Assembly: GCA_914767715.1 (NCBI GenBank)
Contig: OU612074.1
Span: 10,884,062-10,948,061 of the forward strand
DNA length: 64,000 bases
Direction of reading: 5' to 3'
Source of the DNA: Membranipora membranacea
Lineage: Eukaryota; Bryozoa; Gymnolaemata; Cheilostomatida; Membraniporidae
Part shown: in pieces, positions 4,095 to 50,409 of the stretch
Numbering within the stretch: position 1 is the first letter of the stretch
How the letters are laid out: each line of letters opens with the position of its first letter
The notes under the pieces: model-generated
Told to the model about the DNA's origin: nothing
The model's database searches: none
What the model saw: only the letters and a program-made list of their open reading frames with translations
Made by a program: the position numbers and the translations under genes

Positions 4095-5050
4095 ATGCAG
4101 AAACTCACAGCTTTTCTTCTTCTGGCTACAGTCGTAGTAGGTATGAGACTAAACAAAGTATTACTAGATTTATGGATTTATGTCACCTCATTGGACAGTG
4201 ATTAATAATCTTGTTAGTAATTTTATTAAACACAAATCATCTGTTTTATTTTCCTCTTTTTCTAATTAATCCAATAAAATATGTTTCACTGTCTACTGTA
4301 TTTGAATAGGTGTATGCTTAGCCGTGGAAAAGACTCAGGAGCCAAAAAATGGTAAAGATAACGCCGGAAATGTGGGTGACAAGGCACACGCGATGAGTAA
4401 GAAGATGGGCAAGCCAGATATGCAGAAGGAGGGACAAAAGGACAGACACATGAGAGGAGAAAACAAAAATGAGGCTGGAAAACCTAACAGAAGAGGCTGC
4501 AAGTGTGGACCAAGAAGAAGAGGTCGGGGACAAAGAAGAGGAGGAAACCAAATGGATCGTGCTGGTGAAGAAAAGAAAGCTCAGCAAGATGGAAAGATGA
4601 AAACATCAATAAGTGAAGGTGATATACAGATGGGACAAAGATCACAAGGAAAAGGAAACGGACAAAGAACAAATGGCAACAGAGGAGCTTCAAAAAATAG
4701 AGTTAAAGGTGATCGCAAAGGGCAAAGAAATGGACGCAATTATTGTAAATGTGGACCACGAGGAGGTAGAGGAGGTAGAAGAGGAATAAGCAACAAGGGC
4801 CAAAGCGGCAATCGTCGTGGTGATGACAAAGACAAGGTAATTTGAGTTGATATATTCAAAATTTGTTGCAAATATGACTTAGCTGCAATCTACCTGGATT
4901 TCTGCGTTATTGTTGATGGCAATCAAGGACTTAAAAATGTAACCACATAACAATATACATCAAATAAAATATCCTCTTTGTTTTTTTTTTAAATGCCTTG
5001 ACAACATTTTATCTTTGTTTTTGCAGAAAACCACAACCAAAGGGTACTAA
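4095..5050 (+). CDS. P1: secreted twin-CxCGP basic repeat-type protein (new family)
   Basis: Spliced as 4095-4140, 4310-4836 and 5027-5050, giving 198 aa. All junctions are GT-AG, and the ATG is the only one after the TATA box that opens a signal peptide (MQKLTAFLLLATVVVG, then VCLA, with probable cleavage after residue 20). The mature chain is hydrophilic and rich in Lys, Arg, Gly, Gln and Asn, with no predicted globular core that I can see. Two CKCGP motifs lie at residues 79-83 and 161-165; the second is followed by RGGRGGRRG. The last exon adds KTTTKGY. I do not recognise the family. By sequence it is an exported, cationic, probably disordered protein; a mucus, matrix, adhesive or antimicrobial role is only inference. 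It has its own promoter and is the first of eight related genes. Confidence 0.8.
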
Positions 5051-5249
5051 ATACCTGAAAACCAACCAGAGAGATCATCGAAAAGAATATCTTCCATAAA
5101 TTGTTGCACAGTAGAATTCATTGATTTATGTATGAATTTGAAAGATTTAGATATACTAATAACATAGCCTATTTCGCAATAATTTCAGATTTTCAGTGAC
5201 TCATGTAATTTTTTCCTCATTTCTTTGAAACATTGCAGAGATGCTACAA

Positions 5250-5255
5250 AATAAA
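5250..5255 (+). terminator. P1 poly(A) signal AATAAA
   Basis: AATAAA stands 200 nt after the P1 stop, in the context CAAAATAAAGCTGC. The P2 signal has the matching context CAAAATAAAGGCTGC. Confidence 0.65.
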
Positions 5256-5259
5256 GCTG

Positions 5260-6100
5260 CAAAGAATTTAAGTAATTATTGTATGGAATCAAAATCAATC
5301 TGAAACCTTTGCCAGCGATCTTGTGGCCATCAGCATACTTCCAAATCTGAGCAGAATCTTCTAAGCAACAGAAAATGAAATAAAAATGTTTACTATTATG
5401 TGAAGCGCACTTTGACCCTACAGTTACAAAATACCTGGCTTAACTTAACTCAAATTAAATTTCTATAAATGAAAATATCAGCAGATATTTACTTGCAGCG
5501 AGATGTTGCTGTATTTGGCACTCTTTCAAATAGAAAGTCAATTAAAAACTCTATTCATCTCATTGCTCATCTTGTTGCTTGGACAAAAAGCTAACACAGC
5601 GAACCAAAATCTTATTGCAAAAAACTGCTAGTCTGTACACCAAGAATGGCGGTATTATTTCCTTTGGTGCAACGTTATCGTCATGATTAGTTAGACAGAC
5701 TATTCAGTTCCTGTGAGTGCCTGATTTCTCCTTGTGGTAAAAATGTAAACTGATGTTTACTACTCAAGACTTCACCTTCATGACCTTCCTCTGCAATGGT
5801 CAACAGTTAAAAACAGGTATATTTCCAAGACATGAGGATGCTTGTGTCCTTTGAGCTTATTCGGAGCCAAGTGTAATAATAAGCAATTTAATTTCTGTAA
5901 ACATCATATGGAGAACAGAATACTTATGTGATATATTTGGACAATCGAAGACCAATTATAAGCTGTATGTTTGCTAATTGATAATCAAATATTCAAATTT
6001 TGTCACCATTACACAGGCACAGTATATATTTATAGTCATTTTTATTGTGCAATGTGATCATAGAGCCTAGATACACACCACTCTTATTGCCAGTCCTAGT
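5260..6100. other. Intergenic, no feature seen
   Basis: AT-rich sequence with no open frame, repeat or motif that I can support. Confidence 0.6.
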
Positions 6101-6104
6101 GATA

Positions 6105-6360
6105 TCCCTAGGTTGCTATTGCTATCGCTATGGTCCCATGCTTCGAATGAGTGGTCCATTGTGAAACTAACAAAGAATGGATTCGATTTCCATGTTGATT
6201 AAACATCCAAAAAAGCTGCAGCAAGGATTTGAACCCGGGCCTACAGTCAGACTCATTGAAACAAAGTGTGTTATCCAGACATCTGTGACGCCGATCGGCA
6301 TGGGTGCGGTTACCCGATAGAAATGAAGGAACGCGAACCAATGCTTTCAATTTTAGTCAG
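6105..6360 (-). mobile_element. tRNA-derived SINE-like element
   Basis: Read on the minus strand it contains GGGTTCAAATCC, a good RNA polymerase III B box, after a tRNA-like stretch, with non-tRNA sequence following. No acceptor-stem pairing closes it into a real tRNA. A short open frame across it is incidental. Confidence 0.5.
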
Positions 6361-7680: not shown

Positions 7681-7684
7681 ATAA

Positions 7685-7935
7685 TTGACCTTTGATATAA
7701 TTGATTGATTTATATGCAGAACCACTACTATAGGAAATGCCCAAGACCATTTGGTTCAGTACAGCATATGAAATACAATAGCGTGACTTGCAAATTCTTC
7801 ATCCTGAATCAAGTAAAGACTTTATTCATCAATTAAATCTAAGTGCTCTGTGCCATGTTTTGAACGTCATACTTAGAGCAGAATATCAATGTGACACTCT
7901 AAGGGCAATTGATGACCAAAATAGCTGTATATTAT
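7685..7935. repeat. Local repeat, copy 3
   Basis: A decayed copy of the 1,640 block, keeping CAGAACCACTACTATAGG, GTGACTTGCAAATTCTTCA and TTTTGAACGTCATACT. Confidence 0.5.
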
Positions 7936-8464: not shown

Positions 8465-8765
8465 TATGATAATTGACACTTTAACAACATTTATTAATTG
8501 ATATGCCATAACCTTGTATATAGGAAACACCCAAGAGCACTATTTTTAACGTTGAGGTTCAGGATCTAGGCCCATACACAATAGTGTGACTTGCAAATTC
8601 TTCATTGTAACACAAGCACAGAATTGAATCATCAGTTGGCTCTCAGTGCTCTCTAATATGTTTGGGACATCATACTTAGACCAGAATATTAACATGACAC
8701 TTTTAGGCGATCAATGACCGAAATAGCTGTATGTCTGCGTAAATGATAGTAAACAATTAATCATA
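8465..8765. repeat. Local repeat, copy 4
   Basis: Keeps GATATGCCATAACC, ACACCCAAGAGCACT, GTGTGACTTGCAAATTC and GACATCATACTTAGA. It is followed at about 8,828 by GTGTAGATATGTTTGCC, as copy 1 is followed by GTGTAGATATGTGTTGCC at about 2,018. This shows that the 1.6-2.1 kb stretch was duplicated as a unit. Confidence 0.6.
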
Positions 8766-11682: not shown

Positions 11683-12340
11683 ATGCAGAAACTCACAGCA
11701 TTTCTTCTTCTGGCTACAGTCGTATTAGGTATGTACATTAGTCTACTTATAGTGTTTATAACTTTTCCTTATGTGTAACTTGACTGGAGATAATAATAAT
11801 CTTTTGTTTTACATATAACCAAAAAAGTTCTTTTTTTGCCTAATGTATCAAAAAATAACTGTTTATTTTTCCACTTTGTTTGAATAGGTGTTTGCATAGC
11901 TGGGGAAAAAACTCCGGAGCCCAAAGGCGGTAAAGAAAAAGCAGGACATGTGAGTGATAAGGCACATCCAATACAAAAGCAGATGGGCAAGCCAAATGCA
12001 CAGAAGGATGGACTAAAAGGCGGACACATGGGAAGAGGGAATGGGAGTGAGGCTGGAAAACCAAACAGAAGAGGCTGTAAGTGTGGACCAGAAAGAAGAG
12101 TGCGTGGACCAAGAACTGAAGAAGAGAAAATGGCTCATGCTGCAGGGGAAAAGAAAGGTCAGCAAGAAGGAAAGCTGAAGAGATCAATCACTGAAGGAAA
12201 GATCCAGATGACCCAAAGATCACAGGGGAATGGAGACAAGCGAGGAGCCAATGGCAAAAGAGGAGCAATACACAGTGGAACTAAAGGTGATCGCAAAGGT
12301 GACAAAAATAAACGCAAAGAATGTAGATGTGGACCACAAG

Positions 12341-12375
<35 letters not shown>

Positions 12376-12662
12376 AGAGGAGGAAGAAGAGGAAGAGGCG
12401 GCATGGGAGAGAGTGGCAGCCGTCGCGGTGAAAACAAAGACAAGGTAATACGAGTTGAGGCATCATTTTGATACCTGCTGTAATTATTTTGAATTGACTG
12501 CGGCATCTATTTGAAATCCTGCTACACTATCTTTGGGAATCAATTGATATAAATGTCATTTAATAACATAAAGGGTTATAGTGAATGATATCTTAGATTA
12601 AAATATACATTTACCGTTCTTTTTCTTTGTTTTTTCAGAAGACCACAACCGAAGGCTACTAA
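11683..12662 (+). CDS. P2: secreted twin-CxCGP basic protein
   Basis: Exons 11683-11728, 11888-12444 and 12639-12662 give 208 aa. Signal peptide MQKLTAFLLLATVVLG, then VCIA and a mature chain starting GEKTPEPK. CKCGP lies at residues 79-83 and CRCGP at 161-165, the same positions as in P1. After the second motif a (GGAAGA)-type hexamer tract expands the tail into an RGRGGGRGGRGG run. The last exon codes KTTTEGY. It is the closest relative of P1, and both lie in a roughly 7-kb tandem duplication. The frame is intact and splice sites are canonical. Function is unknown; export is well supported by the signal sequence, and charge and disorder are read from composition only. Confidence 0.8.
12335..12400 (+). 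repeat. (GGAAGA)n-type purine hexamer tract inside P2 exon 2
   Basis: Near-perfect GGAAGA/GGAGGAAGA repeats code Arg-Gly repeats in the P2 frame and a long Glu run in the next frame. It is likely length-variable. Confidence 0.7.
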
Positions 12663-13268: not shown

Positions 13269-13293
13269 GGGGGGGGGGGGGGGGGGGGGGGGG
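13269..13293 (+). repeat. Poly-G homopolymer, 25 bases
   Basis: An uninterrupted run of G. True length is uncertain because such tracts are error-prone in sequencing. The short open frame across it is not a gene. Confidence 0.85.
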
Positions 13294-13855: not shown

Positions 13856-14451
13856 CTAATGAATAACAAATAAATCAAGAAGCCGGTCCATATATTGTCA
13901 CCATTATTGAGTCAAACCATATTGTCTCTTACGTCTTGAATGAAGAAGGAGGTTGCTTTGTAGCAGTTTCTCAAGCAGTACCCTTCGCACTCCAAAAAAT
14001 CAAAGCAGGAATTGCGCTTCCATTTTGTGTCCGAATGATACAATATATTGCTGATTACAGGCTTCCCCATAGGAAAAGTGCCGCAAATAAGAACATCCTT
14101 TGCTCACTGCTTTGTTTCTCATTCTAGCACCTGAGAAGAAGTAGCAATTCAACAAAGGTAGACTGGCTTCGAATTTTATCTTTCCGGACTGGGTAATTAA
14201 CTGTATTTCAAATTTGATCCTAGCCTAATTGTCAGTTTTTCTCGAAAATGGCAATTTCGTAATACAGTATACGTATACTCAATCATGTAATACAGGTATA
14301 TAGCTAAATAACCAAATAGCCAAACCTGTACTATATATTTCAAATTTTGATAAAGTTAAAATTGACTGCATAACATAAAAGCAAAACAGGAAATAACATA
14401 TTATATTCGCTTAAGTGATATCTTTACGATCTGTTTTCTTTCTTTGCACAG

Positions 14452-14475
14452 AAGATCACAACTGAAGAGTACTAG
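14452..14475 (+). pseudogene. Orphan last exon of a lost family member
   Basis: A pyrimidine-rich tract ending TTGCACAG is followed by AAG ATC ACA ACT GAA GAG TAC TAG (K-I-T-T-E-E-Y-stop). This matches exon 3 of P1/P2 (K-T-T-T-K/E-G-Y-stop) codon for codon with the same acceptor context. No exon 2 with a CxCGP motif lies between P2 and here, so it is the 3' stub of a deleted copy. The spacing fits a member that once stood between P2 and P3. Confidence 0.7.
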
Positions 14476-15870
14476 ATGAAGGAAAACAAGAAAGCCAGAC
14501 ACAGAATGCCTGCAAATTATCAATGCTAAAGACAATTAATTAAGACCTATGTGATTTTCAAAACAAACTCAAATTCGCAATAATTATAGACTGGTCTCGA
14601 TTACTCAGTAAATTTTACTCGTTCGGTTGAATTAGTACAGGAATACGGAAAAATGAATTGTATTTATTTTAAATGGCCTAAAGTTTGCTTGCATCCCAAA
14701 AAAATTGAAATATTGAAAACAAATAACAATTCACTGGAAAACTTTGCCTATCATCCATGCACATAATATCAGGCACAAAAATGCTGGAATTACATTTTCG
14801 TCCATGTAGCCATAAGGTTCTATATGAGGCCACATGACACATAAGTTTTTGATGCACTCTTCAAGATCAAATTTAAATTGATTGACTGTATGCTGGTTGA
14901 GTTTTGATCATATTTTGATCATTTCCAGACTTATCAATGTAGATCAGCATGCCTCCTCAGGTTTTGTTCAAATTCGAAGAATGTAACTTTTCTCAATTAT
15001 CACCAAGAACGTTGCTCTCTTTGGTTTTTCAGGTTTCTAAAATACTAGGAGTTTCAAGCTAAAAAAAAATAAAGTTGCATTCGAACTGATAAAAAATTGC
15101 ACCATGATCCGGTTTATGATGAGATGACTTTATAAAAGACACACTAGGACCAATGTGGTTATTTTTAGACTTCCTTCGATTTGTGATATGACTATAATAT
15201 TAGAAATGTGAGAAAAGACAATTGATTGATAGACAGTTAATATTGCGTGAAATCCAGACATTCTGACTCTGGATTGCTCTAAAAATGTCACTTCATGTAT
15301 GCGGTGTCAGTATGACATATAAGATAAATTAATTACAAGTCAACATACAGAGGATTTTTGCTGTCATGGCCAACTGGCACTAGAATGCGTTTGCTGATTT
15401 AATGCCGATGATAATGGTATCGTTTTTTTGAAAATAGAGTACAAAAATAGTAGTAGGGAAACACCCATTGACATTTCATGAATACAGTGGCTATAATATT
15501 GTTGTGGTTAATAAAGTTGAAGATATGTTCAATTTGTCATTTGATTGACATGAAGGTATGAGAAATGTACATTTGAATGATTTATAGTTGACATTTACGT
15601 AAATAACCAGACTTTCTGATCCTTGATTGTTTCCAAAGATGAATCACCAATTTTATTTGCGTCCGTTATGATCGTATGACATGACCATTACCAGCTAAAT
15701 TCATTGCTCATGGCTCCAGCTATGATCAAGCAGGGTATCAAGCTTAGATCAATGTTGTGTTCACCAGACATAAATACTGACTCTGCTGTATTTGAAGACT
15801 GTCTCTAATACATCCTGCACATATTATTCAAATGCATCAATGGCATCCAGTTTATCAGCTATCAGTAGGC
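14476..15870. other. Intergenic, no gene seen
   Basis: AT-rich. A fragment near 15,450 (GGGAAACACCCATTGACATT) faintly recalls the local repeat. Nothing else can be supported. Confidence 0.5.
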
Positions 15871-18748: not shown

Positions 18749-19682
18749 ATGCAGAAGATAACAGTTTTAATTCTTTTGGCTGCAATCGTAGCAGGTATGT
18801 TCATTAAAAAGCTCTAAAAATCATGTTTCTGTATTATTTGTATAGATACTAGTAAGATTTGTTTGTGAATTTCCTTTACAACCAGTGAACGCTTATTATT
18901 AATAATAATGCTCAAAAATTTCTAACTCCTCAAAATTTTACTTTGATTCAATAGGCCTGTGTGTAGCTGGGGAAAAATCTGAGACTCATGAGGGCAGAGG
19001 GGATTTGACAAGTCAAGCTGGCGACAAAGGTCATGGAATGGGAAGACGAGGTGGAAAAAAGAGTGAACACAAGGATGGACATATGGACAGAGCAGAAGGT
19101 AGTGAAGTCGGAAATTCAGGAAGAAGAGCCTGTAAGTGTCGACCAGGAAGAAGAGGTCGCGGTCCAAGAACAGAAGAAGAGAAAATGGCACATGCTGCAG
19201 GAGAGAGGAAAAATCATCAAGAGGGAGAGATGAGAAGTGATGGAAAGAGATCAATGGGTGAAGGAAAGACTCAGATGAGACAGAGATCCATGGGTGACAG
19301 GAGGCAAGGAAACAGCCACGGAGGCAGCAGCAATAGAGAAGCAGGACAGAAGAAATATGGAAAGTCTAATCAAATAAAAGAGATGAAGGGATCACAAGGT
19401 GAGGGACAAAGGGGCTGCAGATGTGGACCTAGAGGAGGAAGAGGAGGAAAAGGAGGAAAAGGTGGAAAAGGCAATCATTGGAGTCAACATAGTGAAAATA
19501 AGACTGAGGTGAGTTGTATTACAGCTACTTTGTTTTGATTGAACTACCCGAATGTTGCTGCGTTATTAGAACCATTGAAATCATCACACATGTTCTGCTT
19601 TTTTCCTCTTAACACCGTTCTTGTTGATCTTATTCATCTATATTATTGTTTTTAGAAGAAGACAGCAACTAAACATTATTAA
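18749..19682 (+). CDS. P3: secreted twin-CxC basic protein
   Basis: Exons 18749-18794, 18955-19508 and 19656-19682 give 208 aa. Signal peptide MQKITVLILLAAIVAG, then LCVA and a mature chain starting GEKSETHEG. The first motif is CKCRP (residues 75-79; Gly replaced by Arg) and the second is CRCGP (170-174), followed by RGGRGGKGGKGGKG. The last exon acceptor reads TAGAAGAAG, so splicing may use either of two AG sites three bases apart, giving KKTATKHY or KTATKHY. The middle region (EGKTQMRQRSMGDR, NSHGGSSN) is shared with P4 and defines a P3/P4 subgroup. Intact frame, own TATA promoter. Function unknown. Confidence 0.78.
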
Positions 19683-23781: not shown

Positions 23782-24717
23782 ATGCAGAAAATAACGTCTT
23801 TGATTCTTATGACTGTTGTTGTAGTAGGTAAGTTCTATGATCAAACCTGAAGTAGAACAAAGTTTGTGATTCATTTGATGGGCAGAAATATCTTCTGAAA
23901 ACTTTTCTTCAAGCATTGAATAAATGTAAATATGTTTTTGGTTATAATGATCTGCATTTTTTTAATATTAAACTATTTAAAAAAAGTTTTCTCCTGATTC
24001 AATAGCTGTATGTTCCGCTGGAGAAAAATCTAAGGTGGGTAAAGGGAGAAAGGATATAGAAGGTCAACAAAGATCATCCAATGGGAAGACCAGTCAACCA
24101 AAAGAGTGAACACAAGGATGGAAACATGAGCAGAGCAGGAGAAAGTGAAGATGGAAATTCAAGAAGAAGAGGCTGTAAATGCGGACCAGGAAGAAGAGGT
24201 CGCGGTCCAAGAACTGAGGAAGAGAAAATGGCTCAGGCTGCAGGAGAGATGAAAAATCATCAAGAGGAAGATATGAAAAGAAGTGATGGAAAGGGATCAA
24301 TGGGGGAAGGAAAGACTCAGATGAGACAGAGATCAATGGGTGACAGAACACAAGGAAACAGCCACGGAGGCAGCAGCAATGTAGAAGTAGGACAAAAGAA
24401 AGATGGCAGGTCTAAGCAAATGAAAGAGATAGGGGGATCACGAGGTGATGGACAAAAGAACTGTAGATGTGGACCAAGAGGAGGAAGAGGAGACAACCGT
24501 AGAGGTGGAAGCCATCATAAGGAAAAGAAGACTGAGGTGAGTTCGGTCAAGAGACAGTCAATTGTACTTACATTGTTCATATCAAACTCTTGCTGAATCA
24601 TTTGAACCATTAATCAGGTCACACAGATTCCGCAATATCCATGTTAAAGTCTTTCTTGTTAAACATATCCATCTTTATATTTGTTGTTAGCAGAAGACAG
24701 TGACTAAGGAGTATTAA
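23782..24717 (+). pseudogene. P4: family member with an exon-2 frameshift
   Basis: Exon 1 23782-23827 (MQKITSLILMTVVVVG), exon 2 24006-24536, exon 3 24694-24717 (KTVTKEY). Read from the signal exon, the frame runs AVCSAGEKSKVGKG and ends at TGA 24,107-24,109. The rest of exon 2, from about 24,081 on, is open in another frame and codes the full family body with CKCGP, then CRCGP and RGGRG. Aligned with P3, about 8 bases are missing just before ACAAAG (near 24,068). Promoter, splice sites and poly(A) signal look sound, so the break is recent or a sequence error. As given, only a short peptide of about 50 aa would be made. Confidence 0.75.
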
Positions 24718-25000: not shown

Positions 25001-26520
25001 TCAAGGAAAAAAAGATTTTCTGCGTTTTGTAGTATTCGCCTTGACTAAAAAATTGTCCTTCAGTCGACTCGAATGTCTATACTGTGACGACTGCCTCTCA
25101 GGGACTAACGTGTGGAGCCTATGCCCGCGGTTGCTGGCTATCTTGATAAAATGATTCTGATAAAGTGATTCACTAAAAAGTCTTAACTCAGGAATGGCTA
25201 GTGCTGATAGTCTCTCAGAATAATCCTCTATGTGGGGTGAAATAACTCTAGTGCACAATTTCTGAAATCGTTCCAAGGATTTCAGCTGACTGTCAGTTAA
25301 CAATGGAAAAAAAGCAGGAATACAATGAGCAAGGAGTTTTAAAGGAGTTAAAGTCTTTAACTCCTTGCAATAAGTAAGGATTGATTGTATGTTGGCAACA
25401 TAAACAAGCACAAGTTTGACACTAGACACACCAAAACTTTTCAGCTGTAGCAGACTGTAAACTTCTTTTGGGCTTTATCAAGCACATTGTTAATGTGGGT
25501 ATGAAAATTCAAATACTGATCTATGATAACTCCCAAACATTTCCAACTGGTAACCATTTCTACTGGGGAGAAAACTGTTTGAGGTTTGCTATTCCAGCCT
25601 AAAGTAAGCATCATGCTCTTAGTTTTATTTAGATTGAATGTCATCTTTTGCTCACTGCTCCGCGGGATACCCTAGTCTACCAAAGGTTGTAAGTTATCAT
25701 CTGTGGCACAGGCGGCAGGTGTTGAACAGGTTATGTCATCGGTGTACATGGTCAGACAGTTAGCTGATGGAGGACTGTAGGAGTTAAAGGGCAACCAAGG
25801 TTACGCAGCAATGCATAAATGGGCAGTACATAGTGTGCTAGGTAGCATCAGCTTTGTGTATTACGCGATGCAAAACTCAAACTAGTTGCTGACTCTAAGC
25901 TGGGTAACACTTCGGTTTAGGGGAGGTTCCGAGACGTTGCTGTAATGATGATAGAGCACAGGCTAAATAATAACAGGAACAGGAAACTGCTCTGTGGTAT
26001 TCTATTTTAGCTGAGTTTGAGTACCTGATGGATGAAATGTTTCAGAATTCGAATTCTGGCTGAATAATCATCCAAATTAGATTTTGTCTTTTTCCCTCTG
26101 CAGAAGGTGCAATCTGCTATTAATCAATGAGGGCCAATGAGAAGTTGTTTGAAACCCTGGTTGCCCTTTAATAAAAGCCAACCATAACATTGGCCCTGAG
26201 AGTGTGCCCTGTCGAACCCCTACGTGTATCGGTATATAGTCTGAAGTTGCGGATTTTATCCTAACGCATTGCTGTCTTCTGGAAATGAAATTTAGAGAAA
26301 GTCTCAATATGTCAGGAGTCACACTGCTATATTGTAGGGCTTCAGCAAGTGTTGATGGTTGTAATGAATCGAAAGCCTTGCTGAAATCTTTATAAATGAC
26401 CTCAACAGCGTTGACATCCTTTTTGTCAACGCTTTTGAGGTCCTTTTTAAAGACTTCAGCAAGGCTTTTGATTCATAACAACCATCAAAACTTGCTGAAG
26501 CCCTACAAATCACCTTTGCT
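25001..26520 (-). mobile_element. LINE fragment, reverse transcriptase, broken
   Basis: Minus-strand pieces in order: DFSKAFDSLQPSTLAEAL-like core (about 26,400-26,330), VGVRQGTLSGPMLW (VPQGT-type motif, about 26,220), MYTDDI (YADD-type catalytic box with Ala to Thr, about 25,745), KCLGVIIDQYLNFHTHIN (about 25,530), and the C-terminal thumb-like part ending KRRKSFFP at 25,001. Frames are interrupted several times, so it is dead. It sits directly downstream of P4. Confidence 0.75.
26334..26506. repeat. Inverted repeat inside the LINE remnant
   Basis: The left arm starts GTAGGGCTTCAGCAAG and ends CAGCGTTGAC; the right arm starts GTCAACGCTTTTGAGG and ends CTTGCTGAAGCCCTAC. Arms are about 80 nt with a loop near 10 nt and few mismatches. 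It is a fold-back of the RT KAFDS-coding segment. Confidence 0.8.
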
Positions 26521-31945: not shown

Positions 31946-32959
31946 ACGCAGAAGATAACAGCTTTAATTCTTGTGGCTTCTGTTGTAGTAGGTATGTACC
32001 TTAGACTGCACCAGATGCATAGCTAAGTATATACTTTGTTTCTGAAAACATTGATTATCATTTCACATTTGTTAAATGTTTCAAACAACCTTCAATTGTT
32101 ATTGTGTTTAAATAGGTGTGTGTTCAATTGGCGATCAAGCTGAGACATATCAAGGCAAAAAGGATGGACAAGTGGACGGACAGATGGGCAGACCAGAAGG
32201 GCAAATGGGACGAGAGAAGGATGGACAGATGGGAAGACCAGAAGGGCAAATGGATGGACAAAGGGATGGACAGATGGGAAGACCAGAAGGGAAAATGAAT
32301 GGACAAAAGGACGGACAGATGGGCAGACCAGATAGGCAAATGAGTGGACAAAAGAAAGGACAGACAAAGAACAAGGAAGTGATGCCGGATATTCAGGAAG
32401 AGGAGGCTGTAAGTGCGGGCCAGGAAGAAAAGGTCGCGGACCAAGGACAGAGGAAGAGAAGATGGCTCATGCTGAAGGACAGAAATATCAGCAAGAGGGA
32501 GAGATGAATAGAAGTGATAAAATGGGACAAAAGAGTGAAGGAAAGAGTGAGATGGGACATAAATCAAAGAGCGACAGTAAACAAGGAGAAGGAGAAAGCC
32601 ACAGAAGCAACAACAATAGAGAGGCAGGACAAAATAGAGATGGAAAATCTGAGAAAATGAACAAGATGGAGAGATCTAGAGGAGAACAAAGTGGAAATAG
32701 AAATGGAAAAATGCACTGCAGATGTGGACCAAGAGGAGGAAGAGGAGGCAAGGGTAAAGATGGAAGCCGCCAGAGTGAAAATAAAACCAAGGTTTGTTTA
32801 GTAAAGATGATGTTTCAAACAAATTAATTGCAAATACTTGTACTGAACCCTGAATACTTCGACTTTTTACGATTTACGATTTTATGTTTACACACCTGTC
32901 CAGCTTTTCTTAACCACTCACATCTTTGTTTCTTATAGATGACAGAAACTGAGCAGTAA
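31946..32959 (+). pseudogene. P6: family member without start codon and with frameshift
   Basis: Homologous exons 31946-31991, 32116-32791 and 32939-32959 (MTETEQ). The signal-peptide exon is otherwise intact (QKITALILVASVVVG), but its ATG reads ACG at 31,946-31,948. Exon 2 opens with four 15-aa repeat units (MGRPEGQMGREKDGQ type), then slips frame near 32,365-32,375, before the GGAAGTGATG segment. In the first frame the CKCGP site is lost and a stop falls at about 32,505. In the other frame the body, HCRCGPRGGRGG and the splice donor are intact. Two independent hits make a dead copy likely. Tail-to-tail with P7. Confidence 0.8.
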
Positions 32960-36060: not shown

Positions 36061-38622
36061 CATGGGCGTAGCTGGGGGGATTCAAAGGGTTCGAACGAAC
36101 ACCCTTCTAGTCCAATCACAAATTTTTTTTTCTTCATATTTTCAACCTCTTTGTGTTTTGGTACAAAACTATGTATTGACATGCACTATGATTGATGTTA
36201 TAACAGATGTTCACATACTACCTGCAACTTATGTGTTGCAGGACTATAGCACAACAGCTGTTGTTAGGGAAACCTGAAAAGCAACAAATGCCATCATTGC
36301 TTCTATATATTCATGACTTTTGACATCAATGTTTAATGATGTCACCTAATAGTTGAAAATGAAAAATTACAGGTAAATTTAAAACATAGTCTGTCAATGT
36401 TGAATAAGTAAATGCAGACTAGGCTCCATTGCATGAACTTAGTCAGAAGGAAAAAGCGTGGGAAATATAGAGAGAGGGAGAGAGATAGAGACATGTCATC
36501 TAAGAAAGAGAGGAGAGGGCAGCCAAAGCTAGACAGTGTTTTTTCAACACTATCCAGGTAGAGGAGAATCTTTTGTGGATTTGCAATATGCATTGCAAGG
36601 TAGAAGAAGCCTAACTGCTAGCTAGTCATTCTTCATAGTTCAATTTAAATTGAATTGAAGATTTCCCTTACTACTATTGGTTGTGATTATTTAAATTATT
36701 TACTTTGGTCTGCAGAGATTACTAGACTAGAGTGAGTTCCTAGATGGCCCATCAGATGAGGGCCTTAGACATAAATAGCTGGTGGAAGTAGTAGACTGGG
36801 TTATGTCATATTTGGGTCTCATGAACTGATTGAGTTGGTGCTGGCAACCCCATGATATATATCATTATATTACACAATACATATTATACAATACACAAAA
36901 CTTCCCATCACAATTATGAATATTTTTGAAATCATTTTTAGATATGTTGTTGAGTCACTAGAATCAATCTGCTATGGTAGTCACCACAACAGTGTGCCGA
37001 TAGATCTCTGTGACAGCTGGCCATCACAGGTGAAAACAGAAGCTGCTAATCTGCTGCAATCCATCACAAACTTTCAGTTTAAAGCTAACTTCTGTATTGT
37101 GTACACGCTACTATCACCACTGGAAGGGATCACCACAAAACTCCAGGGACGTTGCAATGACATTTGTAACGCCTATGCTCTAGTAAGTGTCTAGTCTCCG
37201 ACTCTTCGGCTAAAACTTACATATAACCTGATTTGCATACCTTATTACATTGTATTAGGTTTTAATCTTTCACCCCTTATTATGTACAATGTGTAGAGAG
37301 TGTTTTTAAAATCTCATTTAGCATTTAACAAATAAAACTGTGTGATCATTACCATTATAATTATTCCACTCATCATATGACCCTGTATAACATTTCTTTG
37401 TTAATAATGTGAGTGTTGTAACAGGTGACAAAGGAAAAAGAGTTTTACAGCAATATGTGAGAAACTGAAGATGGGCTTTGGTACTTGATGGCTAGAGATA
37501 TGGCGGGTACCGTGAATGTGGAGCCGATAAAACCAAGATCCGTAACCAGAAGCATGCACAGGCCTAGTGCCCCTGCTGTCAGCACAGAAGACTACTATAG
37601 AATCAACAGCTTTATTCCCATGCTAGACCACATCATATCAGAACTGGATAGTATGTTTGATGGTGAGTTGAACCTTAGTTTTATATATCGTTCGTAGTAT
37701 TCATGTTCGAAACGGAGTACAAAAAGTTGTGTCCATCTTTGTTAGAATCGACCCAATAGACTTATCTTGGGACATTTCAGCAAAGGTAGATGAGACTAAG
37801 AAGCAAATAATAATGAGACGAGGCCTTGTAAACTGGGACATTTAGGAAGAACGGCTACCTTTATCCTACCTCAATTTATCTTTAGGATTATGCGGAGCAG
37901 CCATTAAGGTTCTCTACTTGGTGCCTTCTGAGGTATGTAAGCCTGCAGCTATGGAAGACTTTAGTGAGGTTATAGAGTTGTATTTAATCAGGAATACAAA
38001 CGCTGGCAGGCCATGTGCAGGAAACTTGAGGAATTGGCTTCAACTCTTGCATCAGCTATCAAATTATGTGACTCGGACATTTATCCGAATATTTATATCA
38101 TGCTATCTATCGCCTGCACGTGGCCTGTGACCAGCTGTGAGTGTGAGCGATGGTTCAGTGGATTCAGGAGGCTTAACACTTACCTTCGTGCTGCACAGAG
38201 CTCCGAGAGACATGACACTCTCGCCATGATGAGCATCCATCGAAGCATGGAAATAGATGTTGAACACATTGTAAATCTATTTGCTCAGCTCCACCCACGG
38301 CGAATGGAGTTAAATATTTTGAGCTAACTAACATGTTGATAATATAATATATAGTAAAACTTACATCACAATTCAAGGTCACTACTAAAAATTACCACTG
38401 ATTGGGCAAGACTGGGCCATTTATTTCATTTTGACTTTAAAAGTAATAAAAAAATCATTTTATTTTACTGTTACATTTCTATGATTTATACAGCTGAAAT
38501 CGATTCTGGTGATATGTTGGCTAACCAAAAGCTTCGGCGGCCGGACCCTACTGGGGGGCTTACAGCGCCCCCCCCCCAGACCCCCCAGCTGTATTACCAA
38601 TGATGACCCAGCTTCGCCCATG
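36061..38622 (+). mobile_element. hAT DNA transposon, complete ends, decayed transposase
   Basis: The left end CATGGGCGTAGCTGGG and the reverse complement of the right end CATGGGCGAAGCTGGG agree in 15 of 16 bases. Both are flanked by the perfect 8-bp duplication TTGGTAAA, the hallmark of hAT insertion. Inside are fragments of a ZMYM/52-kDa-repressor-type hAT transposase, ending with the C-terminal dimerisation domain. The element is about 2.56 kb. It lies in the duplicated upstream flank of P7: sequence resuming at 38,631 continues the homology with the P5 flank (ACTAGGGTGTGCCC versus ATCAGGGTGTGCCT), so it arrived after the gene duplication. Confidence 0.88.
36916..38327 (+). pseudogene. hAT transposase remnant (ZMYM-like), interrupted
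   Basis: Pieces in order: 36,916-37,194 (YVVESLESICYG...FKANFCIVYTLLSPLEGITTKL), 37,485-37,697 (PSAPAVSTEDYYRINSFIPM, then LDHIISELDSMF), and 37,890-38,327 with the hAT C-terminal signature (TWPVTSCECERWFSGFRRL, then RHDTLAMMSIHR and LFAQLHPRRMEL). The pieces lie in different frames with stops between, and the zinc-finger N-terminus is not seen. Some gaps could be introns, but in-frame stops near 37,850 suggest decay. In the family this protein cuts and pastes the element. Confidence 0.75.
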
Positions 38623-40079: not shown

Positions 40080-41170
40080 TTTAGAGTGTTGATGGGTGTG
40101 CCCCTCATACTAAGTTGGTACATTTTTCACGGAATTTCATCAGCAACCCACATGATGTTGCCAATCCGTTAGCAGATTGTTTGCCATAATATTTATATGA
40201 CAAACTTCATCTTGCTCCCTGTGCCATCTGAAAGCTCGAGAAGATTCTATAGGTGAAGATTTCTAGAGTGAAGACAGTCATTTTTAGCATGCCTAGCAGA
40301 TTCATGTGATATGACTAAAATTTTACTGTGACCTGCACTTCATTTGAACATACAACACACACTATATAAAATCAGTGAGGCTGGAGCCCCGAGGTACATG
40401 ACCATAAAGAGAGATATTACAAGCTTCATTGTGCCGTTTGTGTAGAAGCTATCAAAAGATATGAATATGTATGAATGTATAGATGTATGGAGACCCAAAC
40501 TGAGCGATTTCTTTACCTGATTTTAAACTGAGCTTCATTAATTATATTTTCTTCTGTCACCACGGTTAGCTTCATAAAGGGGGAGCGGGGCCCCTCTCAG
40601 TCTCTCCATATAGGCCTGACTGAAACTGACGAGTTGGTACTATTTCTATAATCCCCCCCCCCGCGCTATTGAATTCATTATACATAAGCAGAGTGAAATC
40701 AAGGGCAGCGGTTTAGCTACTATCCCCAAGTACAGTTCTGACAGGAATGATTGTCCCAGTTGGCTTGATGATGGTATCCATAGGTAACAAAACAGGGAAA
40801 CATTTTTTTGTAATTTTGTAATCTTTTCCTACTGGGTAAGACAAATAATTTCATAATAATATGTTTCCCTGATTCATCATAGATAAACTTGCAGTCTCCC
40901 TTAGCACATGATTGCATCTATATTTTACTGCCTTTGACATGTCATCATTTTGCAATTATATGCATTATTGCATTATCCACAGTAATAGCCTTTCACCAAG
41001 TTCAGTGATAAGCTTTAATAGATTGACAACTACTGCTGATGCTCTTTAGTCTATAAAATAGGCAGTATGTCATGACAGTTCGATTCACCATTGAAGGTCT
41101 TCCTTAGCACATCATCATTCCTATTTTTACCCCTCACTGCATCCTATTTTACATTTGAATATATCCTTTA
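40080..41170 (+). repeat. P8 upstream duplicated block
   Basis: GATGGGTGTGCCCCTCATAC, CTGTGCCATCTGAAAGCTCG, CAGTTGGCTTGATGATGGTA and CACATGATTGCATCTAT are colinear with the P5 and P6 flanks. It is interrupted at about 41,175 by the LINE fragment and resumes at about 42,070 (TTGGGTTCAATTTAG, then GTTGTATCCTATTTG). Confidence 0.7.
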
Positions 41171-41180
41171 TCTAGAATCA

Positions 41181-42065
41181 GTTTGTTTGTTTGTTTGTCT
41201 GTTTGTTTAATTTATGACTTCTCATCCGAGAATGCTTACATAATAAAAGAAGTGTGCTTTCAAAAAGCCCCTCTAAAAATATATGAACAAAAATAAAATA
41301 AATCATTTCAAACGGCATAAAACTCAGGATTGGCAAAAATTCCACATTTTCTCTTCTCAGTTCGACATTTAGGCATACAAATGGTGCCCTCAGAGTTACG
41401 GGTTGAGCGTCTGAGTCTGGTTTTATTGAGCGGAAGTCGATTGTGTAGGGGATGGTTATCGTCAGATAAAATACGATGTACGTATTTGTGGCATATGTCG
41501 TTTAGTAAGTCATTCAGTGGTAGCAAATTCGCAGCTGCAAGTCGATCATCGTAGTGTTCGAGGTCAGAGAAAATAATCCTCATAGCAAGCCGCTGACATC
41601 TCTCAATATCATTCCTCAGACATTCGGTGGTGTAAGGGTACCAAGCACCTGCAGCGTGGGTGATAGCTGCGACTACTTGGGTTTTGTACATTAGTACTAG
41701 GCTTTGTTGGTTTACTCCGGACTGTTTTAATACGAGCAGACCGTGACATCTTTTGTTCGCTGACTTAGTGATGTTAGCCACATGCTCATTGAATCGTAGA
41801 TGTTGGTCGATGGTAAGACCGAGTAGTTTGGTAGAAGCTACGTTGTCTACGTTGTGTGATTGATTCATTGTGAGAGTTTTCGACATTATCATCTGTTTCT
41901 TAAGAGAAAGGTTCAATGTCTTAGTTTTTGTAGCATTCAGTAGCATTTTGTTGTCGTGCGCCCATTTAGTACATTCATCGATAAGCTGCTGACTGACGGG
42001 TGGAGGTTCAAACTTGACAGCGTTGTAAGTATTGCTTATTATTTGAAGATCAGCTTTCTGGAGAG
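41181..42065 (-). mobile_element. LINE fragment: RT C-terminal part with (AAAC)n tail
   Basis: A long minus-strand frame (41,946-41,308, continuing upstream to about 42,020 as PPPVSQQLIDECTKWAHDNK) reads KLLGLTIDQHLRFNEHV, YKTQVVAAITHAAGAWYPY, ERCQRLAMRIIFSD and ends KRKCGIFANPEFYAV. This is the usual C-terminal run of a CR1/Jockey-like RT. An (AAAC)n tail follows on the minus strand (plus-strand TTTG repeats 41,181-41,209). It is 5'-truncated and lacks the catalytic box, but the frame is unbroken, so the insertion is fairly young. It interrupts the duplicated P8 flank. Confidence 0.8.
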
Positions 42066-42306: not shown

Positions 42307-43170
42307 ATGCAGCAGATAACAGCTTTGATTCTCTTTGCTGCAGTAGTAGTAGGTTAGTACCTAAATCTACCCTAAACACTCAACAGAATATTTGCTTTGT
42401 TTGGTATTGACATTTTAGAACACATGTACTGATTTTCAGAAACAAGTGAATACGCAAATGATTTTCATATTCTGTCTTTGTTAAATGTCTAAGACAACCT
42501 CTATAATTCTTAATTTGATTGAATAGGGGTGTGTTTAGCTGGCGAGCAAGCTAAGACACATGTAGGCAAAAAGGATACAACTGGTCAAGTTAGTGATAAA
42601 GGTCATTCGATGGGTAAACCAGATGAGACAAAAGGTGACCAAAAGTATGGACAGATGGACAGAGCAGAAGGGCAAATGGGTGGAAAAAAGAACGCAAATA
42701 TGGGCAGACCAGAAGGGCAAATGGGTGGACATAAGGACGCAAATATGGGCAGACAAGAAGGGCAAATGGATGAACAAAAGGGCGGTCAGATGGGCAGAGA
42801 AGAAGGAAGTGATGTTGGAAATTCAGGAAGAGGAGGCTGTAAGTGCGGACCTGGAAGAAGAGGTCGCAGCCAAAAACCAGGGGAAGAGAAAAGTCAGCAA
42901 GAGGGAGATATAAAAAGAAGTGATAAAATGGGACAAAAGAGTGAAGGAGAGAGTGGGATGGGACATAAATCAGAGAGCGGCAGTAAAAAAGGAGAAGGAG
43001 AAAGCCACAGAGGCAACAACAATAGAGAGGCAGGACTAAATAAAGATGGAAAATCTGAGAAAATTAACGAGAGAAAGGGATCTAGAGGAGAACAAAATGG
43101 AAATAGTGATACAAAAATGCACTGCAGATGTAGACCAAGAGGAGGAAGAGGAAGCAATGGTAAAGATTGA
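42307..43170 (+). CDS. P8: family member with early stop in exon 2
   Basis: Exons 42307-42352 and 42527-43170 give 229 aa. Signal peptide MQQITALILFAAVVVG (Lys3 replaced by Gln), then VCLA and a mature chain starting GEQAKTHVGKK. About three to four 15-aa units (MGRPEGQMGGHKDAN type) precede CKCGP at 120-124; the second motif is CRCRP (215-219, Gly to Arg), then RGGRGSNGKD. The chain ends at TGA 43,168-43,170, where P6 has GGA (Gly). Just after it the usual splice donor is missing: relative to P6, the AAAACCAAGGTTTGTTTAG-type stretch has been deleted. The old last exon survives unused at 43,337. A slightly shortened secreted protein could still be made; it may equally be on the way to a pseudogene. 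Confidence 0.65.
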
Positions 43171-43336: not shown

Positions 43337-43357
43337 AAGACAGAAATTGAGGAATAA
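43337..43357 (+). pseudogene. P8 relict last exon
   Basis: After TTTAATATAG comes AAG ACA GAA ATT GAG GAA TAA (K-T-E-I-E-E-stop), homologous to exon 3 of P5-P7, followed by the shared TAAATGCCTGCC. With the upstream donor deleted and a stop in exon 2, it is no longer needed for coding. Confidence 0.7.
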
Positions 43358-45200: not shown

Positions 45201-45239
45201 CCAGTTACAGTTATACAGTAATAGACAGTGATAACTAAC

Positions 45240-45285
45240 CTATGATTGCATCAGCGAGGAGAAATAGAGCTGTAACCTTCTGCAT
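45240..45285 (-). pseudogene. P10: orphan signal-peptide exon
   Basis: The minus strand gives ATG then 46 nt in all, coding MQKVTALFLLADAIIG, ending in a G before the GTTAGT donor. Length, phase, MQK start and hydrophobic run match exon 1 of P1-P8 exactly. A degenerate family promoter lies upstream. No matching exon 2 follows, so it is either the 5' stub of a deleted member or a signal exon now serving an unrelated, unrecognised downstream exon. Confidence 0.7.
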
Positions 45286-45373
45286 GATTGAATATCGTTT
45301 GAAGTCGCTCTATATTTCTCTATTGAGGGGATGGTTCTCCTAACTGATGTGATGATTTATCTTATGGACCTTA

Positions 45374-45480: not shown

Positions 45481-46650
45481 TAGCTAGAAAATTAGATTGT
45501 TACCATGGATAATAAGTTGATGCTGAAAATGAATGGGACTGTCCTGTGAAATCTCAATATTCAGCTCTCGGCCAGCACAGTTTTTTAATGAGCACTAATC
45601 TAGACTAGGACATTTGAAATGACATATTAAGATGGTCATAGATTATTAGTAAACAAACTAAGATATAGCCGGTGATTGTCTTTCGGATATTACAAGGATA
45701 GAGATGTTTTATTGTGCCCAAACGTCACTTCACATATGTGTCCAAGATGTTATCATTTAGAAGGTATCGCATAACAATAAGTGCATCGGAGTCCTTCTGA
45801 GAACTGTGACGAAAATAAATTAAAATCCTGTTCTTCTTGCATAGCACTTTTTAATGACTCACAAGTGAGGTTGTGACCTGTATATTGGGTTATTTAACAG
45901 TTAAGAGACAAAAACACAATCGAGATAAGAACTGTGTTCTGAATGTGTAGGATTTTTTGATAAAAAAACCGATTCTGCCTGAATCGTTGATACGAGCATG
46001 TAGTTAGGGCTACATCCAGCTGCTTTATTGAATGTTTTCTAGATGATAGTCTCAGTGGCATGTGTAGTCATGCTGCTAGCTAACTAACCCAAACCAAATT
46101 AAAACAAAACCATCTTCAGCAACTAAGTATTGAATTTTGAAAGGACACAAAAGTCTTCTCTCATTATCTCTCTTCTTATGGCTGGGAACTGCCTGGCATT
46201 GTTTATTACAGTCTGCTGGAAATTTATATTATGGCCTGGCACTGACCCTCCCGAACAAGTTCCAACCAGCGTCAAAACGCACAAACGACGACAGGTAGCA
46301 CTAGGTTCTTATATATCAGATCGATTCAGGTATAAAATAGTTACAACAGTGCAGGATAGTTGTAACTCATAAAACATACCCATGACAGGTAATATACTAG
46401 CCGCCGATATTATAGTCGCATAGCAATCGATCGTCGCATGACTAACAGTGACAGTACAATCAACTTACTAGTTGTCAAGGTTTCTAACCATACTACCATC
46501 TCTTGATGGTAGATTCACTTTCAATAAGACAGATTTTAGACTACTTTGTCTACATAATCTGGCGGACATGTATTCACTTGTACCATGTACAAAGCTGGGC
46601 CCAATTTGTTAGTATGAAAGTGTAATAGAAACAAAGAAAACAGTAATTGC

Positions 46651-47440
46651 AAGCAACAGCAAGCAACAGCAAGCAACAGCAAGCAACAGCAAGCAACAGC
46701 AAGCAACAGCAAGCAACAGCAAGCAACAGCAAGCAACAGCAAGCAACAGCAAGCAACAGCAAGCAACAGCAAGCAACAGCAAGCAACAGCAAGCAACAGC
46801 AAGCAACAGCAAGCAACAGCAAGCAACAGCAAGCAACAGCAAGCAACAGCAAGCAACAGCAAGCAACAGCAAGCAACAGCAAGCAACAGCAAGCAACAGC
46901 AAGCAACAGCAAGCAACAGCAAGCAACAGCAAGCAACAGCAAGCAACAGCAAGCAACAGCAAGCAACAGCAAGCAACAGCAAGCAACAGCAAGCAACAGC
47001 AAGCAACAGCAAGCAACAGCAAGCAACAGCAAGCAACAGCAAGCAACAGCAAGCAACAGCAAGCAACAGCAAGCAACAGCAAGCAACAGCAAGCAACAGC
47101 AAGCAACAGCAAGCAACAGCAAGCAACAGCAAGCAACAGCAAGCAACAGCAAGCAACAGCAAGCAACAGCAAGCAACAGCAAGCAACAGCAAGCAACAGC
47201 AAGCAACAGCAAGCAACAGCAAGCAACAGCAAGCAACAGCAAGCAACAGCAAGCAACAGCAAGCAACAGCAAGCAACAGCAAGCAACAGCAAGCAACAGC
47301 AAGCAACAGCAAGCAACAGCAAGCAACAGCAAGCAACAGCAAGCAACAGCAAGCAACAGCAAGCAACAGCAAGCAACAGCAAGCAACAGCAAGCAACAGC
47401 AAGCAACAGCAAGCAACAGCAAGCAACAGCAAGCAACAGC
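46651..47440. repeat. 10-bp satellite, about 79 identical units
   Basis: AAGCAACAGC repeated head-to-tail without a single change over about 790 bp. Because 10 is not a multiple of 3, all three frames cycle through the same peptide; all are open on the minus strand and some on the plus strand, giving artefact frames of more than 300 codons. None has a start or context that suggests a gene. Confidence 0.97.
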
Positions 47441-47620
47441 AAGCAAGCATGCAACAGCAGGCAACAGCAAGCAACAGCAATCAACAGCAAGCAACAGCAA
47501 GCAAGCAAGCAACGGCAGGCAAGCAACGGCAAGCCAGCAACGGCAAGCCAGCAACGGCAAGCCAGCAACGTCAAGCCAGCAACAGCAAGCCAGCAACGGC
47601 AAGCCAGCAACGGCATTACT
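47441..47620. repeat. Diverged satellite edge with 14-bp higher unit
   Basis: The right edge passes from the 10-mer to GCAAGCAAGCAACGG and then to tandem AACGGCAAGCCAGC (14 bp) with single-base variants. This is the usual picture of an older array border beside a homogenised core. Confidence 0.8.
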
Positions 47621-47859
47621 CCCTGGTAGAGCTTAATAATTTTAAATGATTGCACATGATTAATATAGAACTTATTTTATGCCAATGATGAAATTATAAA
47701 TGGTTTGGCGAAACTTATTCACATATTCAATGGCTTGCTGAGCAGTTGAACATGGTTCGACATCAAATTTAATCTTTTTGTTTCATATTTGGTTACAATG
47801 TGGTGATAAAAGAAAAAATCTAGTGAATCTGCCACGCAAGTCACTATCTTATCCGTCCT

Positions 47860-48213
47860 TCAACAATTGATATGACGATGAATTAAAGTCTTGTTCACAA
47901 TACCCAGCTGACCAATGTACATCGATGGCTGATTGATGGAGGTCATATCTTGCAGACAGTGATGGCTTGAATCTATAGTGGTTTCTTTGACATTTTCATT
48001 GGAAGAGGGATATGAAATTGATGATATGACATCATTTTTATAAGAACTTGTTCCATTGTTCACCTCATTCTTCGACCGAATTTTGGTGCTCTGTGACTTA
48101 TGTGGATTTTGTAGTTCGATAGCTGCAGGAATTATCATCTCCTTATTTGTATGAATATTTAAACCAGAGTTATTACGCCACAAATTTGATATGCATATAG
48201 AAAATCTTTTGTT
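47860..48213 (-). CDS. Possible terminal exon of a GPCR (cytosolic tail), tentative
   Basis: After a minus-strand TTTGTTTAGTAG acceptor an open frame of 117 codons runs to TGA at 47,860-47,862. It begins NKRFSICISNLWRNNSG, which is how many class A receptors continue right after the seventh helix (…N-K-R-F-R…), followed by a polar Ser/Asn/Thr-rich tail and a last Cys. No transmembrane exons are visible upstream within 1.4 kb, so the rest would lie across a long intron or is gone. Composition is less AT-driven than random frames nearby. The identification is weak. Confidence 0.28.
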   Translation of the reverse strand, partial: NKRFSICISNLWRNNSGLNIHTNKEMIIPAAIELQNPHKSQSTKIRSKNEVNNGTSSYKNDVISSISYPSSNENVKETTIDSSHHCLQDMTSINQPSMYIGQLGIVNKTLIHRHINC

Positions 48214-48219
48214 CTACTA

Positions 48220-49550
48220 AACAAAATCCACGGGAAATTCAGAAGAATAGAAACAAAAGACAGTAGGTATTCTAGTTTGTATCAACTGATGTGTCTTTTG
48301 ATTGAAGCCCAGCAGTTTTGAATTTGACGCACCATATTAAAATCAAGTGTCAATGCCAATTCCATGTATCCAATTTGGCCCTCACATCGATGCCACATCG
48401 ACATAAGGAAACATTGCCATTTTGAAATAAAATTTCAATGCACAAAGAATGCTGCTATACTGAATTAAACAAAAGTATTGGAAAAAAATTCATGCATCAG
48501 CAGTGTATCTTTGTCAATTGTAACTTTAATAGCATCCAAAAATTAACAAGTGATATTATCAATACAATTTACTGGTCCATTAAATTTGATTTTGATTCAG
48601 CAAGGATTTGGTAGCTTTGGTCTTAGCCCAGTTTGGTACTTTCAAATTGGCCGATCGTTTACCATGCTCACTGGATAGGAACTTTATCAACAGAGGACTG
48701 AGGACTATGAAGTATAAATTTCCTGAACCAAACTTGTCAATTTGATGATAATCTAGAGCGGCAGCATTTCACTCAGGATGGCAGCATTAGAGCTGCAACA
48801 ACTTAGTGTCCAATAGTATCCACTACTCTATGACTATGATGCTTTTGAATTTCTTGCTACAAGCTGGTATTACTGGTCTGTGGGGTAGAGTCAGTAGTTC
48901 ACTCATCGGAAGGGCTTGGCCTTGGGGGATTACCCTAACAGTTTTCAGCGTGTCAATTTTGAAATTCCCCTAAATGTGCATAGTTGATATGAATGTATTG
49001 ATTAAATTGACAATATTCTTGTTTTTAATCACTAAGTGCTTTGAATCTGAGCAAATAACTATTGCCAGCGTCACTAGCCACCGATTTTCTTCATCCTAGA
49101 TTTGGGTACAACAATCCACACATACTTAAAATTAAGAACAATAAAACAATGTTCTGAAATAACAAACTCAAGCAACTTAATTTGAGTCCATAATTGCGAA
49201 CAATTTGATAGGTTCTTCTTCTATAATATAGCTAGTCTACAGGAGCGAACTCTCACTGTAGGAGCCATTTAATTTTCTCAGAGTTGACAATAGCAGGATA
49301 ATCTCATTTACCAAACTCACCATACACAGACCATTTATAAGAGATCATTGTTTCTTGGGGGATTAGGTATCAAACCCATTGTAAATTTAATGTAAATAAA
49401 AACTATTTCAAGGCGACAGGAGACACCTATCCTTGTCTAGGTGAACAAACTCAGAGTTGTACTCACAAGATGTTTCAATAACAATAAGAAAACCCAGGTG
49501 AAATCACCAAGTAGGGTTTATGGTTATGTTTGATCTATCACATTTAGTTA
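48220..49550. other. Intergenic, no gene seen
   Basis: No supported feature. I looked for GPCR helices on the minus strand and for a family signal exon on the plus strand and found neither. Confidence 0.45.
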
Positions 49551-49639
49551 GGTTCCTTTGGGTGATAACTGGTCGATAGTGTGTCGACTTTGCGCCTATT
49601 TAAAACGCTGGCAATACACAGTACACAAACATGTAAAAA

Positions 49640-50160
49640 GGCCGACCAATGAGGGAGAAAAGGTCAGAAGTGAAGGAAAGGGATCAAGAGGAGAGGGAAA
49701 GAAGCGAATCAATGAGGGAGAAATGAGCGGAAGTGAAGGCAAGGAGGGACCACGCAGTGAGGGCAAAAGAGAAATGGATGGAAGCGCACGAAATGGATCA
49801 AGAATAGAAGGCAAAAGGCCAATGTGAGAGGGTGAAATGAGTGAAGGTGAAGCTGAAGGACCGAGAGGAAAGGGCAAAGTAGAAAGTGATGGAAGTGCAG
49901 GAAACGAAAGAGAGAGGGTAAAAAGCCAATGGGATAGAAAGAAACGGGAAACAGTGAAGGTGAAGGACAATGGAGAGGAGGCATGAGGCCAATGGGAACT
50001 GATGCCCAAGGTGGTCAAGATGGTGATGGACACAGACATTGCAGATGTGGACCAAGAGGAGGTAGAGGTGGAGATGGAAATAAAATCAGATGGAACCCAT
50101 GGTGGCGCACAGGGCGTTAGAGGTGACTCAGACAAGGCTGAAGCTGAGGGGCAATAAATG
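49640..50160 (+). pseudogene. P9: distant, decayed family member
   Basis: Near 50,030-50,075 one frame reads GHRHCRCGPRGGRGGDGN, the family's second motif with its RGG tail. The upstream 400 bp code Gly/Glu/Lys/Ser-rich sequence in shifting frames, with an internal repeat of the phrase E-G-K-(R/K)-(K-)P-M. Stops include TGA after KRPM (49,825) and TAG after KKPMG (about 49,934), plus a frame slip near 49,905. No CKCGP first motif, signal exon or TATA promoter was found. It diverges strongly from P1-P8 and may be an older branch. Confidence 0.65.
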
Positions 50161-50383
50161 GGCTTCAATACAATGAGGCCTGCCTTCATGATAAATTGTA
50201 AAATCATTGGCCCATCATTAGTAACATTCAATCAGTATTGGGCCTCAATCCTTATTTTTTGGAGACTGATGTTAAAGAAAGCCTAATTTGACCGAACATG
50301 ACTTTGAAATTTAAAATTGTAACAATAAGTTGACAATGAAATTTTTTGTATCATTTCATGTCAATATGTGTATTCCTGTGAGC

Positions 50384-50389
50384 AATAAA
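50384..50389 (+). terminator. P9 poly(A) signal in conserved 3' block
   Basis: AGCAATAAATGTTTCAACTA then AATAACC resembles the 3' block of P3-P8. Another AATAAA lies at 50,153-50,158. Confidence 0.5.
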
Positions 50390-50409
50390 TGTTTCAACTA
50401 AATAACCGT

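Follow-up and report, generated by a model that had tools for sequence, protein, structure and literature searches.

Clustered, lineage-specific secreted proteins, which homology-based annotation misses, are one route by which animals arrive at immune and surface chemistries of their own. A 64,000-nucleotide (nt) stretch of the bryozoan Membranipora membranacea (contig OU612074.1, positions 10,884,062 to 10,948,061, forward strand; hereafter the window) raises the question of what such a cluster encodes, as it carries eight tandem copies (P1-P8, within 4095-43357) of a short gene whose product bears paired C-x-C-G-P motifs. The copies look like real genes, four of them intact (P1, P2, P3 and P7) and four broken (P4, P5, P6 and P8), and their products are predicted to be strongly basic and intrinsically disordered. 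Tentatively, with somewhat less than even confidence, we read them as a young, lineage-restricted tandem family of secreted disordered polycations that would bind polyanions, be linked through their CxC pairs and coat or gel a surface.

The eight copies share a three-exon gene model, under which their status as intact or broken was judged. The first exon measures 46 nt in every copy and starts with ATG, or with ACG in P6; it encodes a hydrophobic leader, MQ(K/Q)(I/L)T..., which by established knowledge directs secretion, and a phase 1 junction connects it to the body exon, which is 527-890 nt long and opens with the residues VCLA or near variants. The last exon comprises 6-8 codons plus the stop, with a T-x-T string in seven of the eight copies. 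Introns span 124-194 nt, with GT-AG borders at intron 1 in all copies and at intron 2 in all except P8, where the donor has been lost.

Among the intact copies, P1 (4095-5050, forward strand; exons 4095-4140, 4310-4836 and 5027-5050) encodes 198 amino acids, P2 (11683-12662, forward; 11683-11728, 11888-12444 and 12639-12662) and P3 (18749-19682, forward; 18749-18794, 18955-19508 and 19656-19682) encode 208 each, and P7 (34578-35624, reverse; 35624-35579, 35407-34770 and 34598-34578) encodes 234. The lesions of the broken copies differ: P4 (23782-24717, forward; exons 23782-23827, 24006-24536 and 24694-24717) has a frame change early in exon 2, P5 (27679-28968, reverse; 28968-28923, 28769-27880 and 27699-27679) an in-frame TAG within its repeat array, and P6 (31946-32959, forward; 31946-31991, 32116-32791 and 32939-32959) an exon 2 frame change besides its altered start codon. 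P8 (42307-43357, forward; exon 1 42307-42352, open body 42527-43167, last-exon sequence 43337-43357) combines the missing second donor with an early TGA after CRCRP.

The cysteine motifs set the cluster apart from chance. C-x-C-G-P occurs 15 times in the six-frame translation of the window, 14 times in P1-P8 and once in a relic, whereas 200 order-1 Markov sequences of like composition averaged 0.185 and never exceeded 2. The spacing from cysteine to cysteine between the two motifs is 82 residues in P1 and P2, 95 in P3, 103 in P7 and 95 in P8. The original prediction, which described eight gene copies of rigid design with a 46-nt signal exon, motifs 82-103 residues apart and a last exon of 7-9 codons, is borne out in these respects, the codon count including the stop, with the amendment that the common gene structure is broken in half of the copies. 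Its further statement that CKCGP is followed by C(R/K)CGP throughout was too strict, because both motifs are exact CxCGP in only six of the eight copies, the exceptions being motif 1 of P3 (CKCRP) and CRCRP in P8. The four cysteines of the two CxC pairs, in contrast, are cysteine in all eight copies, although three of the four columns mix TGT and TGC codons; the constant element is the two CxC pairs, and the GP after them is dispensable.

Around the cysteines, conservation was profiled as mean pairwise identity per 10-residue block among the four intact bodies. Identity is highest around motif 1 (0.77) and in the RGG stretch following motif 2 (0.70), with 0.54 at motif 2 itself; the 40 residues downstream of motif 1 (RGPRTEEEKMAHAAGE onward) score 0.53-0.60, the 30 preceding motif 2 score 0.35-0.43 and the first 50 residues 0.32-0.52. 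The predicted picture of constant ends around a freely changing middle was thus partly right: the cysteines and the RGG stretch are kept and the 30 residues before motif 2 do vary, but the N-terminal part changes as much, so that free variation holds only for the second half of the middle.

Because the copies share a TATA promoter, keep exon 2 better than the introns and show restrained protein change among intact pairs, they look like real genes. A TATA box, CTATATAAA, stands at -94 to -98 from the start in all eight. A TACGTCA element lies 52-57 nt upstream of the TATA box (-146 to -154) in seven copies, being exact in five and a one-base variant in P2 and P7, with no match in P3, and in every copy but P8 a TCATCATTA-like element occupies -161 to -175 relative to the start; both upstream elements are possible shared control sites. 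Exon 2 identity exceeds that of both introns in all 28 copy pairs (for instance 0.76 versus 0.61 and 0.61 in P1-P2, 0.62 versus 0.50 and 0.48 in P1-P7, and 0.89 versus 0.78 and 0.78 in P6-P7). By a simple method applied to pairs that are not independent, the ratio of non-synonymous to synonymous substitution (dN/dS) in the six intact pairs is 0.43-0.60 by a first count, for which the bootstrap upper bounds are 0.67-0.81, and 1.00 for P3-P7. A variant count gives 0.46-0.65, and a count that begins 15 codons ahead of motif 1 gives 0.48-0.65.

The alternative that there are no functional genes here, only a decaying repeat that keeps its reading frames by chance, would account for the four broken copies and for dN/dS of at least 0.8 in many of the 22 pairs that include one: 14 of them when counted from motif 1 onward (range 0.44-1.52) and eight over longer open pieces, where full-length rates involving P5 are affected by a misaligned start of its open piece that the count from motif 1 avoids. 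We consider this very unlikely in view of the intact-pair range of 0.43-0.65, the preference for exons over introns in every pair and the retained splice sites and TATA boxes.

Several observations nevertheless weigh against our reading. The exon-intron margin narrows in P5-P6 to 0.81 versus 0.80 and 0.66, and as a purine-rich, low-complexity exon raises chance identity, part of the gap may reflect composition. The frame control is weak, with the true frame lowest of six in five of the six intact pairs, tied in P2-P7, and the runner-up just 0.00-0.14 higher. The closest pairs, at a synonymous divergence of about 0.1, exceed a dN/dS of 1 (P6-P7 1.15, P7-P8 1.45, P6-P8 1.52), as does P4-P7 (1.20); in P6-P7, P7-P8 and P4-P7 alike one partner is broken. 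The values in the closest pairs may fit the decay of P6 and P8; relaxed or diversifying selection would fit as well.

Ratios above 1, seen in five of the 22 pairs with a broken copy when counted from motif 1 on, would also suit a reproductive secretion, that is, an egg or seminal/sperm coat protein diversifying through duplication, as would tandem duplication with divergence and pseudogenes. We regard this as improbable, since none of the six intact pairs exceeds 1, making a simple arms race somewhat less likely, and no gamete-specific feature was seen in the sequence.

The history of the copies can be followed in a tree of the whole gene regions, which groups P1+P2, P3+P4 and P5-P8, each at 100/100, with branching inside P5-P8 partly open. 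Neighbouring copies are closest in the tree, a pattern as in tandem duplication. In the P5-P8 bodies a 45-nt coding unit, equal to 15 residues resembling QMG(R/K)PEGQMGGQKDG, has expanded into an array, with 9.0, 4.6, 4.0 and 3.4 units in P5, P6, P7 and P8, respectively; the array was not found in P1-P4. A neuropeptide or hormone precursor, in which dibasic cleavage sites would frame the repeated peptides, was considered and rejected on the basis of the P7 repeats (residues 31-95), the array that was checked, where a single KK occurs and KR, RR and RK are absent.

Searches for relatives returned little. Against about 5.8 billion proteins, a search that detects only relatives of similar length with short identical words in common and may overlook distant ones, P2 found two relatives and P7 one, and a seven-row profile added one, giving three in total, none of them named. 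P0002 is identical to P3 at 172 of 177 residues and comes from this species or one very close to it. Continuing the P3 frame into the intron gives exactly the end of P0002, KTEVSCITATLF, and P1 comes near to the NKDKVL end of P0001; all three database relatives are thus apparently genomic reading frames, which do not speak to transcription. P0001 and P0002 deviate in their motifs as well, P0001 having CRCGA and P0002 keeping CKCRP like P3. P0003 matches the first piece of P5 at 73 of 86 aligned residues, departs from the P5 frame right at motif 1 and holds three canonical repeat units against seven in P5 (counted by one pattern), indicating that array length changes within the lineage.

Family libraries yielded nothing credible. 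Three bodies matched no Pfam family at an expectation value (E) up to 1; all seven rows of the family alignment gave three weak rows in Pfam-A (best E 0.098), each in one of the seven members; and there were no families in NCBIfam for seven members and no matches of the family profile to PDB sequences. Single scans of a viral and a prokaryote collection showed no relative of the P2 body. No description of the family stood among the literature matches listed, which cover open-licence literature and few subscription journals; those for CKCGP/CRCGP were mostly giant-panda papers, where the string is, we guess, an abbreviation, plus Daphnia metallothionein. The expectation that no named family would be found therefore stands for the libraries searched, and this looks like an unnamed family. 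It evolves by birth-and-death, with pseudogenes, and looks young and lineage-restricted.

What the intact genes would secrete can be described for mature chains, assuming that the leader is cut after residue 20. These chains have 178-214 residues, four cysteines each, 20-24 % glycine, 11-12 % hydrophobic residues and one to three aromatics. Their isoelectric points and net charges are 10.84 and +31 (P1), 10.75 and +30 (P2), 10.28 and +21 (P3) and 9.88 and +18 (P7), in agreement with the basic tail that had been described from the sequence. All four fall on the disordered side of a charge-hydropathy prediction. AlphaFold2, given the P2 body with five relatives, returned a mean predicted local distance difference test (pLDDT) score of 47.1, a predicted template modelling score of 0.13 and no residue at a pLDDT of 70 or more, with two low-confidence helices within residues 77-104.

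How such chains might act can be sketched from charge, disorder and cysteine content. The lysine-, arginine- and glycine-rich parts would bind polyanions, be they microbial surface polymers, mucins, glycosaminoglycans or nucleic acid; the CxC pairs, the sole cysteines after leader removal, would join chains by disulfides into multimers; and the secretion would coat or gel a surface, its likeliest role being that of a barrier or anti-microbial layer. Three considerations count on the other side: low pLDDT is also expected from a six-sequence alignment, a basic composition does not point to a particular ligand, and a secretion with a structural or reproductive role would explain the observations nearly as well.

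In the structural version, the products would be subunits of an extracellular matrix, mucus gel, glue, egg coat or biomineral matrix, with repeat number tuning chain length and the CxC pairs cross-linking the network. The low-complexity make-up of glycine, lysine, arginine and glutamine, the expandable 15-residue unit, the constancy of the CxC pairs and the common TATA promoter all agree with it. However, so few aromatics per chain leave little room for tyrosine-based (dihydroxyphenylalanine, DOPA) cross-linking, and the basic charge of the chains sets them apart from acidic mineral-binding proteins; we consider a structural role possible, if on balance doubtful. Nothing observed separates a barrier or anti-microbial coat from a structural matrix, and the choice among these readings rests on general likeness.

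Beyond the eight copies, relics of the family bear out the prediction of stubs beside them. A P2-like copy has left its last exon and 3' part at 14402-14660 (forward; blastn E 1.7e-5 and 6.1e-5, with a last-exon match), and 41066-41188 (forward; blastn E down to 3.3e-21) resembles a far upstream part of P5-P7 and is either a relic or a shared repeat. Two further relics are a lone signal exon at 45234-45291 (reverse) and, at 49651-50078 (forward), the 3' remains of a body exon that keep a single CRCGP and an RGG tail. Gene models and promoters, copies both intact and broken, and a coding repeat that gains and loses units are all on view in this single window.

The surrounding sequence is of other kinds. 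Reverse transcriptase pieces and a hAT dimerisation region lie between and beside the copies (57030-57805, forward; 26077-26472, reverse, a weak reverse transcriptase piece at E 0.004; 37968-38327, forward). An RBR ubiquitin ligase gene, which we take to be RNF14-like, occupies 51277-56374 (reverse) in pieces, with RWD, RING and IBR exons of which the first RWD and last IBR pieces fall just under the Pfam cut-offs; phages held no match to it, and PDB sequences, up to E 0.1, none to its RWD piece. VPS13_N-like exons follow at 59776-59925 and 63533-63889 (forward), neither of which reaches the family cut-off (Pfam E 3.5e-8 and 0.003). Together with the reverse transcriptase and hAT pieces, these flanking genes mark the DNA as eukaryotic and, by inference, animal. 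About 88 copies of a 10-nt unit, GCAAGCAACA, fill 46649-47522, where several long frames are open through repetition, and a run of 25 G lies at 13269-13293. ARAGORN and Rfam gave no matches in the window and hence no hint of lineage.

Among known systems, three invite comparison. Glycine-arginine-rich (RGG/GAR) tails bind nucleic acid, and the family tail, GPRGGRGGRRG, resembles such RGG boxes; the familiar RGG proteins are intracellular, whereas the copies here carry a leader. Daphnia metallothioneins share the string CKCGP, printed in their sequences in PMC2234263, and would suggest metal binding, with the CxC pairs as metallothionein-like ligands. The Daphnia proteins are, however, short and cysteine-dense in the alignment printed in that source, with 24 numbered cysteine columns, in contrast to just four cysteines in the mature chains here, which also have a leader and no Pfam match. 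The family was accordingly rejected as a metallothionein, and metal binding by the CxC pairs seems extremely unlikely.

The closest likeness in working style, with no kinship implied, is to the SpTransformer (Sp185/333) system of sea urchins, which we compared by description. Induction in phagocytes by microbes is one hallmark of that system. In passages of PMC8634487 and PMC5491942, these are clustered small genes of variable copy number whose proteins are glycine-rich, disordered and secreted, with a histidine-rich region and mostly acidic isoforms; passages of PMC8634487 give two exons, exon 1 being a 51 or 54 nt signal exon and exon 2 variable with imperfect repeats. The proteins bind microbes and multimerise, according to passages of these two sources and of PMC5940198. 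As far as those passages go, our cluster shares the clustering, a short signal exon, a variable repeat-bearing exon 2 and a glycine-rich, disordered mature protein (disordered here by prediction). RGD, an SpTransformer motif, stands in P1 and P3 but not in P2 and P7 among the intact copies. The cluster departs in having three exons and a signal exon of 46 nt, no histidine-rich region (2, 5, 10 and 8 histidines in mature P1, P2, P3 and P7, with no histidine run), strongly basic products, and two constant CxC pairs, the word cysteine being absent from the passages of PMC5491942. With two defining SpTransformer features lacking, we do not file the cluster as a member, although it may work in a similar way. 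That it is an independently evolved, cysteine-bearing counterpart, with expandable lineage-specific polycations that coat microbes as CxC-locked multimers in another animal lineage, is an unlikely but conceivable extension of this likeness. Were a CxC-locked polycation to be demonstrated, a known task would have been solved in a new way.

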